DNA from: Candidatus Gastranaerophilales bacterium
GTDB lineage: Bacteria > Cyanobacteriota > Vampirovibrionia > Gastranaerophilales > Gastranaerophilaceae
Length of the DNA stretch: 64,000 nt
Direction: 5' to 3'
NCBI GenBank assembly: GCA_944324945.1
Contig: CALUYE010000006.1
Location: 1 to 64,000 of the forward strand
Position 1 is the stretch's first letter. Each line of letters opens with the position of its first letter. The position numbers and the translations under genes were made by a program. Of the stretch, positions 1 to 6,054 are shown piece after piece. Under the pieces are notes generated by a model. The model had not been told where the DNA came from. It did no database searches and was given only the letters and a program-made list of their open reading frames with translations.

Positions 1-320
1 CGACACAGCCCTAAGTGCCGGATAGGAACGGCAAAATTTTTTACACTTCTATTACTTCTTTATCGCACATTAGCAAATTGAAGAGTGTTATAATCTTGCG
101 CCGGTAGTAAAACATCTGCGAAACGATGCTGATATTCTAAATGCATTCTTTATTGACCACGAAAAAGATATCCAAATTTAAATACTGTTTAAAAGGTGTT
201 TAAAAGCCGTTTTAATTGTGTTCAAAAATTATTATGTCTGAATGATACGATTTAAGACACATATACTTGATGTTTCCCGATGAAAGAGCGATGAATGGTG
301 TAGCTTGAAAGGAGCATACT
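1..320. other. Left-edge stretch without a recognisable gene
   Basis: I see no supported gene. The only frame open from the left edge is the first plus frame, which stops after about 26 codons and gives a non-protein-like string. The stretch presumably carries the promoter of the small-gene cluster starting at 321, but no strong -35/-10 pair stands out. I compared it by eye with the TTGCAC array upstream of the transposase (5305-5430) to look for the opposite transposon end and found no matching motif, so the left end of the element is probably outside the window. Confidence 0.4.
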
Positions 321-533
321 ATGATTGAAATCGGTAAAAAATACAGATTGAAAAAACTTAAAGGATGGTTTGAAAAAGATAGCGAAGAGTTTACGGTTTT
401 ATGTTTTGGTGAACCCAATATTGTCGGCTGCGTTACACCAGATGGTGAAAGATATGTATTTGATAAAGATTTTTTGATTGATCCTGATAAGCCGGATGAG
501 ATATACGCAGATATTACAATAACGAAAGGATAA
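321..533 (+). CDS. Small hypothetical protein, 70 aa
   Basis: A 70-residue acidic/basic soluble protein that I do not recognise. The start is supported by a good AAAGGAG ribosome-binding site 7 nt before ATG. It has no signal peptide, membrane segment or cysteine cluster. It is the first of three closely packed genes, with only 3 nt to the next. Its centre (an FTVLCFG stretch, then CV, then GERY) weakly resembles the next gene product (LLICLWE, CV, GKRY), so the two may be distant duplicates. It lies in the accessory region next to the transposition operon. Function unknown. Confidence 0.65.
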   Translation: MIEIGKKYRLKKLKGWFEKDSEEFTVLCFGEPNIVGCVTPDGERYVFDKDFLIDPDKPDEIYADITITKG

Positions 534-536
534 ATT

Positions 537-737
537 ATGTTTGAAAAAGATTACAAGTTATACGGAACAAAGATTTTAAACTTAAAAACGCAAGAAATAG
601 GTTTGTTGATTTGTTTATGGGAGAATAAATTCGCCGATAAAACAGTAGATTTTGCAACTTGTGTAGATAAAACTGGCAAACGCTACAACATTGAACTAGA
701 TAATATAAGAGGGTTTGACGATGATTTTGAAAAATAA
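537..737 (+). CDS. Small hypothetical protein, 66 aa
   Basis: A 66-residue soluble protein of unknown function. ATG follows the upstream gene by 3 nt, with an AAGGA ribosome-binding site inside the end of that gene, so the two are likely co-transcribed and translationally coupled. A conserved-looking CV-x(2-3)-G-(E/K)RY stretch is shared with the upstream product, suggesting an old tandem duplication; the similarity is too short to be sure. No membrane segment or catalytic motif is visible. Confidence 0.6.
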   Translation: MFEKDYKLYGTKILNLKTQEIGLLICLWENKFADKTVDFATCVDKTGKRYNIELDNIRGFDDDFEK

Positions 738-948
738 ATTAACAAAAGAAATACTAGATATTCCATATTCTGAATTCAGAATAAAGTTTGCCAAAGAAAT
801 TCAGGATGCGTTTGAAAGTTATCGCAAAACTCAACTAAATAAATATTCTTGGAATTTCAAAGATGCTAACTCTTTGGAGTTTAATTTTTATTTTGAACTT
901 CATTGGAACTTTAATCATTTTGGAATGTCAAATTGGTACATTGAATGA
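721..948 (+). CDS. Small hypothetical protein, 75 aa
   Basis: A small soluble protein rich in aromatic residues (Phe, Tyr, Trp) towards its C-terminus. It overlaps the end of the preceding gene. A TTG start at 715 is possible, but ATG at 721 has an AGAGGG ribosome-binding site about 8 nt upstream and is preferred. It is the third gene of the 321-948 cluster. No family recognised, no signal peptide and no membrane segment. The aromatic-rich C-terminal half (about residues 45-75) looks like a folded beta-type domain, but that is only an impression from composition. Confidence 0.5.
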   Translation: MILKNKLTKEILDIPYSEFRIKFAKEIQDAFESYRKTQLNKYSWNFKDANSLEFNFYFELHWNFNHFGMSNWYIE

Positions 949-1044
949 CTTTAAATATTATAACTTGTAGTAAGTATTTTTTGAAATTATTTATATCTTC
1001 GTTTTGCTCTATATTTGTGATACTCTTAGTAAAAAGGAGCTAAA

Positions 1045-1770
1045 ATGAGATTACAAAAATACATTATTATATCTTGCATAATTATATTAATTTTGTCTTT
1101 AATTGGAATTTTTGCTACAGAACAAAATAATAAGTTTTATGATCTTTCTACAGGAGTATTTACCGGAGTTGTGTTAACAGGCATGACTTCAATAATCTTG
1201 TTCCTTTATGAAAAAAATAAGATTATAAACAAACTATATAACAATTTCGCGGAAATTTATTTTACACTCTGTGTAATTGATAAAAATTTAGGTAATTTTC
1301 TTATAAAAAAAGAAATTACAGATATGAATTTTAGGATAAATTATAAACTGACAATGGAAATTATAAATACAATAAAAGAATTTGATTTTGATGAATATAC
1401 GAGCTTTTTTGACAGCAAATTTAATAGTTTATTAGAACAATTTTTAAGTTTTAACCTGAAGTTATACAATCTACACAATATTGTAGGTGAAAGAAACCAA
1501 GGAGTTTTGTATCACGAATTAACATTAAAGGATTTAGAATTAAAACGATTACAAGGAATTGCAGAACAAATGCTTTTACCTTATGAACAACAAGTAATAA
1601 ATGATAGAGAAGCTCTTCTTATTTTAATAGGCAAATTGCATGAATATGTTGTTTCATTAAAACTAGAATTAACATCAAACCTAACAAAATTAGACAATTA
1701 TCATAAATTCAAAATAAGTTGGGATGGGAGAAAAAGTTTGCTGGAAAAGCAAGTTCAAGAACTTTCTTAG
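1045..1770 (+). CDS. Two-helix membrane protein, unknown function
   Basis: A 241-residue protein with two hydrophobic helices at its N-terminus (about residues 7-27 and 36-56) followed by a roughly 180-residue, helix-rich, charged cytoplasmic region with coiled-coil character. GGAGC 7 nt before ATG supports the start. Architecture is that of a small membrane-anchored coiled-coil protein; no enzymatic motif is visible. It sits tail-to-tail with the transposition operon on the other strand, so it could be accessory cargo of that element, or simply host DNA. I do not recognise the family. Confidence 0.65.
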   Translation: MRLQKYIIISCIIILILSLIGIFATEQNNKFYDLSTGVFTGVVLTGMTSIILFLYEKNKIINKLYNNFAEIYFTLCVIDKNLGNFLIKKEITDMNFRINYKLTMEIINTIKEFDFDEYTSFFDSKFNSLLEQFLSFNLKLYNLHNIVGERNQGVLYHELTLKDLELKRLQGIAEQMLLPYEQQVINDREALLILIGKLHEYVVSLKLELTSNLTKLDNYHKFKISWDGRKSLLEKQVQELS

Positions 1771-1872
1771 TTTTATTAGAATAAAGAATATTTATACATT
1801 ATCAATGCAAACATTTAATATGTAGATAAACAAAATAAAAATAATATTTTATAAACTAGTATGGTGCTATGT

Positions 1873-2274
1873 TTACATTCCTAAAATATCTCTTTCAACT
1901 ATTTTTACAATATCTTCCGGTAAATATTCTTTCTTGTTAGACTTTTGTTTTGGCTCGGTAATTTGTTGTTTAACCTGTGGCAAATTTTTCAAGATATTCA
2001 TCAATGAATACATTTCTGCCTGTGGAGTTTGTTGATTATTATCAATATCATTTGAAATTTTATCCATAATTTTTTGTGCAAAATTTAGCAGTTCACGATT
2101 AAAGAGTTTCTGCTCTCGGCATTTTTCAAACCTCTTTCTATCCCATTCATATTCTTTCTTCCAATAAAATAAAGTCCTGCGCGAAAGATCAAGTTTTGTG
2201 CCAATCACATCAAGCGGTTGTTGTTCGTAAACATATAAATGCTCTGCCTGCTTTAATTTATCCAATTTTGTCAT
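1873..2274 (-). CDS. Terminase-small-subunit-like HTH protein
   Basis: A 133-residue basic protein. Residues about 8-45 (LYVYEQQPLDVIGTKL, then SRRTLFYWKKEYEWDRKR) form a helix-turn-helix with the W-x(n)-DR-R signature typical of phage small terminase subunits (gpP-like and DUF1804 families, the latter known from Mu-like phages). The remainder is helical, ending in a Lys/Gln-rich linker and a short C-terminal helix. It follows the previous gene by 2 nt, with GAGGT 8 nt before ATG. No large terminase, portal or capsid gene follows, so either the element has recruited this DNA-binding protein for transposition or it is a remnant of a transposable phage. Family assignment is by motif, not search. 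Confidence 0.65.
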   Translation of the reverse strand: MTKLDKLKQAEHLYVYEQQPLDVIGTKLDLSRRTLFYWKKEYEWDRKRFEKCREQKLFNRELLNFAQKIMDKISNDIDNNQQTPQAEMYSLMNILKNLPQVKQQITEPKQKSNKKEYLPEDIVKIVERDILGM

Positions 2275-2276
2275 AT

Positions 2277-2831
2277 TTATACCTCAAAAATTATTCTGTC
2301 TACTGTAAATTTTGTTTTATCAGATAATCTTCGCACCTGAAAATTACAAGTTCTATCAATTATTCCAAGATTTTGAAAATATTTAATCATCTGATTTAGA
2401 AGTGCTAGTGTATTTTTCAATACTTTTGGTGGCAAATTTCTGCCTTTACAAAAATCGTAAAATTCTTGAATATCGTTACAAGTAATATCATTTAAATTTT
2501 TATTTTTGAAAAATGGGGAAATGTAGTATTTTAACATTCTTCGATATCTTCTGTAAGTATTTAATTTACAATTGTTTTTGACATAATTTTCCAAAAAATA
2601 ATTAATCGCAGCATCAAATGTTATAACCTGAAAATTTGTCACTTGGTTTGTGCAAATGATAAATTCTTGCTTAGGCTTTTCTTCCTGATATTTATATAAT
2701 CCTTGTCCAAATACCAATTTATCCTCGTTCAAAAGCAGTTCAAGTTCTGTTTTACAATCGCATTCCGCAATCATTTCAATTTCATCAAGTGTAAATTCTT
2801 TTAAATGTCGCGCCAATTTTTCTATGTTCAT
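2277..2831 (-). CDS. Integrase core-binding-like protein lacking catalytic domain
   Basis: A 184-residue protein. Residues about 72-165 (AINYFLENYVKNN, NTYRRYRRMLKYYISPFF, DITCNDIQEFYDF and helices ending near NLGIIDR) read like the SAM-like core-binding domain of tyrosine recombinases. The sequence then ends after about 20 residues: the catalytic R-K-H-R-H-Y domain is absent, and no downstream frame supplies it. The N-terminal 65 residues are helical and acidic. The start overlaps the ATPase stop in ATGA, so the two are translationally coupled. It is probably a sequence-specific DNA-binding partner of the transposase/ATPase, in the position other elements give to TniQ/TnsD target selectors. 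That role is inference. Confidence 0.6.
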   Translation of the reverse strand: MNIEKLARHLKEFTLDEIEMIAECDCKTELELLLNEDKLVFGQGLYKYQEEKPKQEFIICTNQVTNFQVITFDAAINYFLENYVKNNCKLNTYRRYRRMLKYYISPFFKNKNLNDITCNDIQEFYDFCKGRNLPPKVLKNTLALLNQMIKYFQNLGIIDRTCNFQVRRLSDKTKFTVDRIIFEV

Positions 2832-3508
2832 AAAATCTGCTCCATAATTTCTTTTGTAATTTCCGCTAAATTATTATCTTTTGAGAATGTTTCCATTTGA
2901 TTTATTAATTGAACAATTTGCCGGAATCTATTGTATTTTAAATGTATATATTCAATCGCATCGGGAGTAAATGGAACTTCTGAAAGTTGCCCGATTATTT
3001 GCGATAAATCATTCATTCCAAATGTTTCAAACTTCAGAATTTCTGAAAATCTGTCATAAAGGTGTTTGTATCGTTCAAGTTTTCTGTGCACCAAACCCAT
3101 TCCGATAAAAATTATCGGGCATCCGGTTTCATCGTGGATATCACGCAGGGTTTCAATGGTTTTGTAGTTATTCATTAAATAATCAATTTCATCAATAAAA
3201 ATCACTTGCGGGTTATTTTTCAGCTTTTTTACAACGATATTAAAATTATCCGATGTCAAAAATCTTGGTATTTCATCAAGCTCTTTAACAATTTCTTCAA
3301 GCAGCCATCTGCCTGTCATAAGGTTTGATGCCCGAAGATAAATTCCATCATATTTGCACGCAAGCCATAAAGCTGTTTGGGATTTTCCGAGTCCCGGTTC
3401 ACCATACACTAATCCCATCTTCGGGATATTTTGGGGTTTGTTTATCAGATTTTCAACAAGTCCGATAAAGTTTTTTATGTTTTGCGTTTTAACAAATATT
3501 TTCTTCAT
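2828..3508 (-). CDS. Transposition ATPase, MuB/TnsC/TniB-like
   Basis: A 226-residue AAA+ ATPase. Walker A is GEPGLGKS (residues 36-43), Walker B VIFIDE (102-107), and a sensor-1 segment IIFIGMG lies at 132-138; a C-terminal helical lid follows. Length and motif order fit the short MuB/TniB/IstB-like transposition regulators. Such ATPases form DNA-bound filaments that choose target DNA, stimulate the transposase and give target immunity. The gene start lies 20 nt inside the end of the transposase gene, and its stop overlaps the next start, so the operon is translationally coupled. The transposase-ATPase pairing makes this call firm; which subfamily it belongs to is open. Confidence 0.85.
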   Translation of the reverse strand: MKKIFVKTQNIKNFIGLVENLINKPQNIPKMGLVYGEPGLGKSQTALWLACKYDGIYLRASNLMTGRWLLEEIVKELDEIPRFLTSDNFNIVVKKLKNNPQVIFIDEIDYLMNNYKTIETLRDIHDETGCPIIFIGMGLVHRKLERYKHLYDRFSEILKFETFGMNDLSQIIGQLSEVPFTPDAIEYIHLKYNRFRQIVQLINQMETFSKDNNLAEITKEIMEQIL

Positions 3509-5195
3509 ATAACAATTGATACTCCTTTGTTTGCTTAAATTTTTCTATCCATTCATCTTGTGGATTATGGATTATTAAATACTCATATTTATCAGCATTA
3601 TTTTTAAAACTCTTGTAAACACCATTTGAACAGCTTTTAAACACAGCTTGAACTGTTGGTTCTCCAGTTTTTGTTTCTAATATTTTAATATCTTCTGTTT
3701 CCAGATATTTTTTAACAGACTCAACTGTTTTCTTTTTGAGTTGTCGTTGTTTGACAATTTTTTGCTTGTAATCCTCAAAATCTTTAACATCACCCAAGAG
3801 TTTTGCCATCGGATGTGTTTCTGTTACACGTTCTGCGGTGCATAAATATTCGCCTTTCGGGGTGTAAACCTTAATACTTGTCAGGTCAAAAAGATTGTAT
3901 TTAATAAGAACTTTGCTCTTAAATCCATATAACCTTTCGTCAAAATAGTCGCAATTTAAGAACCTTATGCCGTTTCTTTGAATTGTTTTTACTTCTGTTG
4001 CAAGCATCAAATCGTCAAGTGCATTTATATCAATATTTTGTCTTTTTCGTTCTTCTAAAACTTCAGCCACTGTTTTATCCAGAGCATTAGGGCAAGGTTG
4101 AGAATTCTTAAAACGCAGCCACATATCTATCATTTTGATTGTTTCTTCTATTGTGGGGACATATTCGTTATGAAGACTTTTGTGGAATTTTTCATTCCTC
4201 ATCATATACGCAGGTTTGTTTTGAATACTGCTTCCGATGTAGCTCGGCAACAATTTTTCAAAACCTTCCTGAAATTCTTTAAAAAATCTTTCAATTACTT
4301 TTGCTCGGGCGTTATATGGTCTTGCAAAAACGGTTTCTATTCCGAGTTTTGAATACAATCCTTGAAATCCAAGTTCTGTGAATCCTTTATCGTCAGTAAA
4401 ATATTTTGCTCTAAATGCTCTGCCGTTATCCTGATAAACAACTTTCGGTATCATATCAAGATTGATAATTGCATTCCTAAGAGCCGATGCTATGCATTGC
4501 GTATTTTCTTCAAGCATAATTTCATAACCAACTAAAGCTGTTGATTTCCAATCCAAAAATCCGACAAGAGTTACTCTTGTGGGTTTGCCTGTGAATGGAT
4601 TTATCACCTGAAACGCTAATTTATGTCCGTCGGCTACTAAAATATCCCCGACTTCTAAAAGAGAAGCGTCACGTTTTATATATGGTTCAACTTTATCAGA
4701 AAGTGCTTTTTCTCCGTCACGAGCGAGAATCCATTTGTCATAATTATTATCCTTAAACCATTTTGCATAACGTCTAAATGTAATATCTGCAGGTATAAAA
4801 CTTTGCCCTTGCTCATGCAATTTGTATTTAGTGAGTGCAACTGCTTTTCCGATTGAAATTCTATTCGGGTGCAAAAGCAACCCCATAAATATTTTAATTT
4901 CTCCATCATTCAATACTGTCCGATAATCATTTACACTGCTATACTTATATTGTGGCAGAAGTTTTGTATAGTCTTCCGTTCCATTTAGCATAGCAAGCCA
5001 GCGATGCAAACTACCACGGGATATTTCCCCTAAAATTTCAAAAAGGTGAGAATTTGAAGTATTATGCAATTTCACAAAATCATAATCGGCTTGAAGTTTA
5101 TTTTGAGATTTATTCCTGAATTCAAGCCATTTATGAACGATATCAAGTCTTGCAAGTGCAATTTGTTTACATTTTTTGGGTGTGAAGTTTGTCAT
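3489..5195 (-). CDS. MuA/TnsB-type DDE transposase
   Basis: A 568-residue integrase-fold transposase. The N-terminal region (about 1-170) contains helical DNA-binding domains. The catalytic domain carries D189 (VADGHK), D256 (YQDNGRAF) and E302 (KVIERFF), the expected DDE triad for cut-and-paste or replicative strand transfer. Residues about 385-450 (GIRFLNCDYFD, KVLIKYN, IKVYTPKGEYLCTAE) match the Mu-transposase C-terminal beta-barrel. A basic C-terminal tail, likely contacting the ATPase, follows. GAGGT about 8 nt before ATG supports the start. First gene of the operon; all three catalytic residues are intact and there is no frameshift, so it may be active. Family known from phage Mu, Tn7 (TnsB) and Tn552/Tn5053. 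Confidence 0.9.
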   Translation of the reverse strand: MTNFTPKKCKQIALARLDIVHKWLEFRNKSQNKLQADYDFVKLHNTSNSHLFEILGEISRGSLHRWLAMLNGTEDYTKLLPQYKYSSVNDYRTVLNDGEIKIFMGLLLHPNRISIGKAVALTKYKLHEQGQSFIPADITFRRYAKWFKDNNYDKWILARDGEKALSDKVEPYIKRDASLLEVGDILVADGHKLAFQVINPFTGKPTRVTLVGFLDWKSTALVGYEIMLEENTQCIASALRNAIINLDMIPKVVYQDNGRAFRAKYFTDDKGFTELGFQGLYSKLGIETVFARPYNARAKVIERFFKEFQEGFEKLLPSYIGSSIQNKPAYMMRNEKFHKSLHNEYVPTIEETIKMIDMWLRFKNSQPCPNALDKTVAEVLEERKRQNIDINALDDLMLATEVKTIQRNGIRFLNCDYFDERLYGFKSKVLIKYNLFDLTSIKVYTPKGEYLCTAERVTETHPMAKLLGDVKDFEDYKQKIVKQRQLKKKTVESVKKYLETEDIKILETKTGEPTVQAVFKSCSNGVYKSFKNNADKYEYLIIHNPQDEWIEKFKQTKEYQLLYEENIC

Positions 5196-5304
5196 AATGA
5201 ATTACCTCACACACATTCATCACTCACCTTTCGGAATAAATCAAGTCCTGAATCTCAATCTCAGAGACATTTTGACACATATCAAACTAAAAGATAAATA
5301 ATTT

Positions 5305-5430
5305 TTGCACTTTATTGCACTATTTTGCACGGGGTAAATGTTCAAATATATTGGCACTTTAAGGCATGAAAAACACTAAAAACCACAAATATTAGTGCAA
5401 AATAGTGCAAAAATCAGGACAAAAGTGCAA
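5305..5430. repeat. Helically phased TTGCAC array with inverted copy
   Basis: Three TTGCAC hexamers start at 5305, 5315 and 5325, exactly one helical turn apart. The reverse complement GTGCAA occurs at 5395, 5405 and 5425. The 16-bp unit TTGCACTATTTTGCAC (5315-5330) is repeated perfectly inverted at 5395-5410, with the centre near 5362. A degenerate TTGGCAC lies at 5351. The array is 110-235 bp upstream of the transposase start, between that gene and the tRNA. It most likely binds a protein of the element, either the transposase at its end or one of the small DNA-binding proteins as an operator. No copy was found elsewhere in the window. Confidence 0.8.
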
Positions 5431-5612
5431 GAAAAGTCCGGCAAATCTCTACTCTATAAATATGCCTCAAACTAGCAACAACTCGGCATCATAGCCAATA
5501 TAAACGCATCTAAACTGTCCTGAAAACCTATAATCTCCATAACACTCTTGCGCATATACATTCACTTGTATTCACCTGCTCCGAAGGAACAAGTCTCAAA
5601 TTGCAAAAAATA
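5431..5612. other. Element-tRNA junction region without gene
   Basis: Between the TTGCAC array and the 3' end of tRNA-Ala I see no gene. There is an imperfect 10-bp direct repeat (ATTCACTTGT then ATTCACCTGC, 5560-5579). The outer end of the element should fall in this interval, but without an uninterrupted copy of the site the exact base cannot be given. I found no second copy of the tRNA-Ala 3' end in the window that would act as an attachment-site duplicate. Confidence 0.4.
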
Positions 5613-5685
5613 TGGAGCGTAGGGGATTCGAACCCCTGACCCCGACGCTGCCAGCGTCGTGCGCTACCAGCTGCGCTAACGCCCC
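5613..5685 (-). tRNA. tRNA-Ala (GGC anticodon)
   Basis: A complete cloverleaf reads on the minus strand: acceptor GGGGCGT paired with ACGCTCC (one G-U), D stem GCGC/GCGC, anticodon stem CGACG/CGTCG with loop CTGGCAG (anticodon GGC), T stem AGGGG/CCCCT with TTCGAAT loop, discriminator A. The 3' CCA is not encoded. Its 3' end faces the transposition module, a common arrangement for elements that integrate beside tRNA genes. Confidence 0.96.
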
Positions 5686-5899: not shown

Positions 5900-6054
5900 T
5901 TTATAGGTGTGTCGATTTGTGTTATTTTATGTTTTGAATTAAATCCTTATTATATAAATCAAGAACAGTGATTGCATTTATTGCATATTTATTTTATTCT
6001 TCCTTTGTCGTTATATGCTTTACCATTGCGCATTGAGCATTATTACTGCACTAA

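Follow-up and report, generated by a model that had tools for sequence, protein, structure and literature searches.

The TTGCAC array at positions 5305–5430 of the window, as we call the whole 64,000-nucleotide stretch of Gastranaerophilales DNA analysed here, is a two-armed, helically phased and subterminal feature of the left end of a transposable element, and it moves with that end. The element is a Mu/TnsB-class DDE transposon, in which a Mu C-terminal domain, a partner AAA ATPase and a 5-bp target duplication are all present. Judged from sequence, we put at slightly better than even (about 0.55) the chance that the array serves in cis as the site where a nucleoprotein complex assembles in the left end of this asymmetric transposon, bound by a helix-turn-helix (HTH) protein of the element and with its two arms joined.

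The pattern of three TTGCAC motifs facing three inverted GTGCAA motifs was confirmed at the positions and spacings first reported from the letters alone. Read from the terminus, the outer arm (arm 1, 5395–5430, minus strand) has GTGCAA at 5395, 5405 and 5425, in steps of 10 and 20 bp, and the inner arm (arm 2, 5305–5330, plus strand) has TTGCAC at 5305, 5315 and 5325, in steps of 10 bp. Between the arms lies a centre of 64 bp (5331–5394), the length of which is conserved and the sequence of which differs between classes. The array is flanked on the terminus side by an outer box, GTCCGGCAAATCTCTACTCTATAA (5436–5459), and on the other side by an inner box, AATCTCAATCTCAGAGACATTTTGACACAT (5251–5280), which resembles the right-end terminal box, is conserved in the left-end profile and is a candidate transposase site. 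The perfect 16-bp inverted repeat that had been singled out is present (5315–5330 against 5395–5410), but it is not a conserved unit; across left ends the 4-bp spacers vary and TTGCAC alone is nearly invariant, so the perfection of the repeat is incidental. Single TTGCAC words are mildly enriched in the window (46, against 28.9 ± 5.4 in shuffles), while 10-bp pairs occur three times against 0.017 expected and the exact 10-bp triplet occurs once, against none in 300 Markov-simulated windows. On the plus strand of the window, TTGCAC is the only 6-mer with at least three different letters to form a triplet with a period of 9–11. Simulation and reversed-pattern controls ruled out a chance origin of the array, and an RNA hairpin formed by the inverted arms was set aside, given that co-variation of the spacers was not apparent and that the sequence of the centre is not conserved.

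Homologous elements were compared at the best 80 of 222 related loci, many of them labelled Candidatus Gastranaerophilales or Melainabacteria. A strict search gave 71 two-armed arrays, found at 60 of the 80 loci as well as in the window and on contig C10 of the same genome. The array is thus conserved in homologous elements, where the sequence-only reading had named its absence as the result that would count against it. Among the remaining 20 loci, several show a mutation in one site or a gap in the sequence, some lie on contigs that stop before the element end, and three carry an altered form of the array. Seven loci (L051, L053, L060, L068, L070, L071 and L073) have a reduced inner arm, and these reduced arrays stay in register, with sites at 0, 20 and 30 and then at 110. 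Counted from the outermost site as 0, the full array occupies a 10-bp lattice, with 0, 20 (or 21) and 30 in one arm and 100, 110 and 120 in the other. In counts that are not independent, since homologous loci share descent (the centre classes help, but there are only four), 63 of 71 left ends have the third site of the inner arm at +20, and 68 have the outer site at 20 or 21 bp. The distance between the starts of the two innermost sites, one in each arm, is 68–71 bp in 67 of the 71 copies, with inserted sequence in the others, and the centre measures 62–65 bp in 66. Centre sequences form four clusters with a between-cluster identity of 0.47, and the shuffled value is also 0.47. Because the length of the centre is held without conservation of its sequence, one complex probably spans both arms. 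Helical phasing at one turn was likewise supported: all steps are of 10 bp, which places the sites on one face of the DNA if one helical turn takes about 10 bp; with a turn of 10.5 bp, the arms would be about one third of a turn out of phase.

Some arrays are interrupted by other sequences. A GC-rich repeat of about 70 bp (GCGGCTTGTCGGCAGAGGG...), apparently another mobile repeat, is found in this position at L083, L085, L089, L036 and L078. Centres of class B (for example those of L010 and C10) often contain a palindrome, CCCTGAACTTGTTTCAGGGT, which resembles a REP-type repeat and sits exactly between the arms with the arm distance unchanged. The idea that the array acts as a barrier to nested insertion was rejected, as nested elements are also found inside the array centre (L087, L083).

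The left terminus of the element, 5'-TATAGGTTTTC (5522–5532, minus strand), is the sole copy of this sequence in the genome. Homology stops here in all loci, and beyond it each locus has its own flank, usually the 3' side of a tRNA gene. Right ends read ...GTTAAATTACA. The right end closes in CA and the left one opens with TATA, rather than the two forming 5'-TG...CA-3' termini. The 5 bp next to the left terminus (5533–5537) are GAGAT on the minus strand, from which the same five bases were predicted to follow the right end. When the window's own genome was searched by pattern, a single right end came up, at 6050–6078 of contig C2, and it is followed by GAGAT. The assembly thus divides the element between two contigs, with the left 5.5 kb in the window (1–5532) and the rest on C2, up to the right end at C2:6078. 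Duplications of 5 bp bound two further elements, at L017 (GGAGG, 15.6 kb) and L050 (AATGG, 16.4 kb). At L023/L096 and L036/L093 the sequence at the nearest right end differs from the left flank, as it would if these elements are nested. An earlier candidate for the right end, a conserved gene block ending near position 76 of the window, proved to consist of cargo genes.

These limits show that the array belongs to a transposable element, as had been proposed, but that it is not the transposase end itself: homology runs about 100 bp further, to the TATA at 5532, and the duplications in the three elements fix that boundary. The array lies about 100–230 bp inside the left terminus, and the distance between terminus and array is 121–124 bp in 43 of 44 measured copies. 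Its distance from the transposase gene varies from about 0.2 kb to several kb, owing to intervening cargo genes; in the window the array is 110–235 bp upstream of the transposase start, and in the C10 copy it is 1.37 kb away. At L050 the six sites lie between +103 and +228, and the 16.4 kb of that element contain no further 10-bp pair. A search for the motif at both ends of related elements had been proposed as a check; the right end carries no phased TTGCAC, and neither does the 6-kb right part of the window element.

The gene next to the left terminus, 80 bp away, encodes tRNA-Ala(GGC) (5613–5685, minus strand) and has its 3' end facing the element. In the window and in the upstream flanks of L013–L089, insertion has taken place on the downstream side of tRNA genes, at a distance of 39 to about 200 bp (mostly less than 135 bp). 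These tRNAs belong to many isotypes, and in every case the left end faces the tRNA; 3' ends of tmRNA genes are apparently used as neighbours as well. The variable distance and the many isotypes suggest that the element recognises a feature common to tRNAs. Tandem cassettes without a transposase carry their own array together with a cargo gene (L056, L065, L069, L075, L076 and L079), and at L056 and L065 the array stands at the head of the cassette, followed by the cargo gene and a right end. Such transposase-less cassettes stack in tandem beside the tRNA with one or a few cargo genes each and recall a cassette array; further stacks were seen at G147:C18 and G251:C1.

Among 286 genomes of the order, 102 carry the two-armed pattern, all from family f1, and none of the 22 genomes of the order's other families does. 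Across 386 genomes sampled from the phylum the two-armed pattern turned up nowhere else, and its reversed form is missing from every order and phylum genome searched. Occurrence at unrelated genes throughout the genome had been named as a second result that would speak against the interpretation; the two-armed copies inspected are all at element left ends. A host operator used throughout the genome was rejected on the same grounds, the other matches being MITE-like repeats (L100–L104, L106) and three chance pairs located in genes or close to them (L105, L107, L108). The MITE-like repeats are dispersed beside ordinary genes, have a one-armed TTGCAC array with spacings of 21, 11, 10 and 10 bp, and are probably non-autonomous relatives of the element.

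Four core proteins are encoded on the minus strand of the window. The transposase (568 aa, 3489–5195) matches Pfam Mu-transpos_C (9e-15), PHROG 310 transposase (3e-86) and TnsB structures (6e-4), with a Pfam rve match below cut-off. It is accompanied by a TniB/MuB-type AAA ATPase (226 aa, 2828–3508; Pfam AAA_22 4e-13 and TniB 1e-6, both above cut-off). These two proteins are uniform across loci, the transposase being the most conserved of all. The third protein, IntSAM (184 aa, 2277–2831), consists of an N-terminal winged helix and an integrase core-binding domain and has no catalytic domain; its first 48 or so residues, the part in which AlphaFold places the winged helix, are nearly invariant, and the remainder has diversified. 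As a candidate for selecting the target, it parallels TnsF in concept. The fourth, an HTH protein of 133 aa (1873–2274), varies between 30 and 93% across loci. Its family matches are to TerS-type and phage DNA-binding proteins, and its model (pLDDT 80) shows a compact three-helix HTH followed by a long helix and further helices, an order that fits TerS; the best PDB fold match, the phage protein 2ao9, is weak (E 0.26, TM 0.33). Pfam detected no TniQ/TnsD and no TnsA among the four core proteins, so by this sequence criterion the family is not Tn7-like, and it is not IS607.

The transposase gene shares upstream sequence of the form CTTGATTT...GAGTGATGAATG with other element genes (window 5200–5250; L012, L025, L039), which suggests an element-wide promoter or operator. 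Two related transposases are encoded in the same genome, at G000:C3:8650-10182 (61% identical) and G000:C1:603460-604737 (58%); both have an extra N-terminal region resembling a Mu-type HTH, and no TTGCAC array is found in their flanks.

The 133-aa TerS-like protein is most likely the binder of the array. The form of the array changes with the HTH subfamily: L048, L049 and L067 carry a second subfamily and altered arrays, with transposases still 79–86% identical to that of the window, whereas in the first subfamily the array is canonical even at about 40% HTH identity (L058, L072). At L059 there is no array and no HTH gene in the available sequence, with a transposase 83% identical to that of the window; the contig is short, so the HTH gene could lie elsewhere. 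The evidence for this link is small in number, four loci and a single distant relative (C3), and the pattern was recognised in retrospect. It bears on the suggestion that the array is a new type of transposase end site, with the transposase or its N-terminal domains binding TTGCAC as extra left-end sites. Several transposase sites are carried by the ends of the Mu and Tn7 families, the array is an end feature, and transposase and TTGCAC are both the most conserved parts. We nevertheless consider this unlikely, because the array is altered at L048 and L049 with a transposase 86% identical, because sites of TnsB and MuA measure about 20 bp and a 10-bp spacing leaves little room for such a subunit, and because the transposase must recognise something else at right ends, which lack TTGCAC; the boxes of the ATCTCAATCTC type found at both ends are better candidates. 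Binding by the winged helix of IntSAM would link the left end with the machinery that selects the target and would explain why the left end leads at tRNA genes; the near-invariance of that predicted domain speaks for it. We rate it as improbable: the IntSAM of L049 is 82% identical to that of the window, yet the array there is altered, and the third protein of C3 has an N-terminus similar by eye, with no array in the upstream flank.

The remaining alternatives concern what the array does. It had also been proposed as an operator, on which HTH or IntSAM would act as a repressor of left-end transcription, including the transposase promoter where no cargo intervenes. The position of the window array just upstream of the transposase start fits this, and inverted arms at fixed spacing recall looping operators. 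However, the array stays with the terminus when cargo moves the transposase gene away by up to several kb, it is retained in cassettes with cargo that brings upstream sequence of its own, and a promoter scan of the region did no better than shuffles (3 against 1.7 ± 1.4). The array may also repress the operon; a purely operator role is less favoured, since the position of the array is constant with respect to the terminus and not to the transposase gene, and we regard such a role as somewhat less probable than direct transposase binding. Least probable is that the TTGCAC word is incidental to intrinsically bent DNA, with phased T/A tracts, or to a host nucleoid protein. T- or A-rich 4-bp spacers do flank the sites in phase, but their variation beside a nearly invariant TTGCAC points to sequence-specific reading.

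In the assembly-site reading that we prefer, each TTGCAC would be bound by one HTH of the 133-aa protein, which would oligomerise along one face of the DNA. The arms, joined over the centre of about 64 bp, would then form a single wrapped or looped complex. This complex would mark the left end and help to load the transposase and TniB there, in a role in transposition rather than regulation, and loading at the left end would give the element its polarity, with that end towards the tRNA. Repression of the operon, which begins immediately inside the array, may be a further function of this complex. A more specific version, which we hold only tentatively and well below even odds, is that a TerS-like ring or arc holds the six sites on one face, with inverted arms and a 64-bp sequence-neutral loop, and that this left-end-only complex recruits the transposase and sets polarity. 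If so, a DDE transposon would be defining one of its ends in a new manner, with a packaging-type HTH protein as the end marker.

The array gives a short, sequence-based entry point to a transposon family that is widespread in gut Gastranaerophilales and, as far as we found, undescribed; its members insert next to tRNA and tmRNA genes and stack cargo cassettes there. Our search of openly available journal papers returned nothing on transposons of Gastranaerophilales or on this element family. If the array is a left-end assembly site, this would account for the single orientation that the elements take at tRNA genes, and it would mean that a DDE transposon tells its ends apart by means of a separate DNA-binding protein and a length-measured spacer. 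We found no description of such an arrangement for transposons of this class; helically phased subterminal arrays as such are known from IS1535.

The left end of IS1535, a member of the IS607 family, has short direct repeats in helical phase that are subterminal and stronger on one end, and cooperative binding to them nucleates end pairing (PMC6188088). IS607 itself uses a serine transposase, and its motifs lie within 20–60 bp of the end in a single orientation (PMC6188088). The array described here likewise consists of short direct repeats one turn apart, subterminal and on one end. It differs in having two inverted arms with a centre of fixed length, 100–230 bp from the end, and in belonging to an element with a DDE transposase and no serine recombinase.

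Phage Mu has asymmetric ends, makes a 5-bp duplication and carries an extra internal enhancer/operator that aids assembly. The present element resembles it in its MuA/MuB-class proteins, its 5-bp duplication, its asymmetric ends and its extra internal site. In contrast to the remote Mu enhancer, however, the array lies inside the left end; the left terminus is TATA and not TG, and the element inserts beside tRNA genes. The N-terminal enhancer domain of MuA was not detected in the proteins of the window element.

Insertion next to tRNA genes is known from type V-K systems. A recombinase-related component is found in the Tn7-like element Tn6022, in which a TnsB/TnsC-type core is accompanied by TnsF, an inactive relative of tyrosine recombinases and the probable target selector; TnsF has zinc fingers and inactive recombinase core-binding and catalytic-like domains, and works with TniQ (PMC10293859). 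Our element similarly combines a TnsB/TnsC-type core with a recombinase-related protein, IntSAM. It differs in that IntSAM has only a winged helix and a core-binding domain, the core lacks TnsA and TniQ, and the distance to the tRNA varies.

Phage TerS proteins form rings of HTHs that read pac DNA about once per turn. The arms of the array have opposite orientations, unlike the arrangement of TerS on pac DNA. The 133-aa protein resembles TerS in joining an HTH to a helical region like the oligomerisation region, a likeness seen in its family matches and helix order, with a fold match that is weak.
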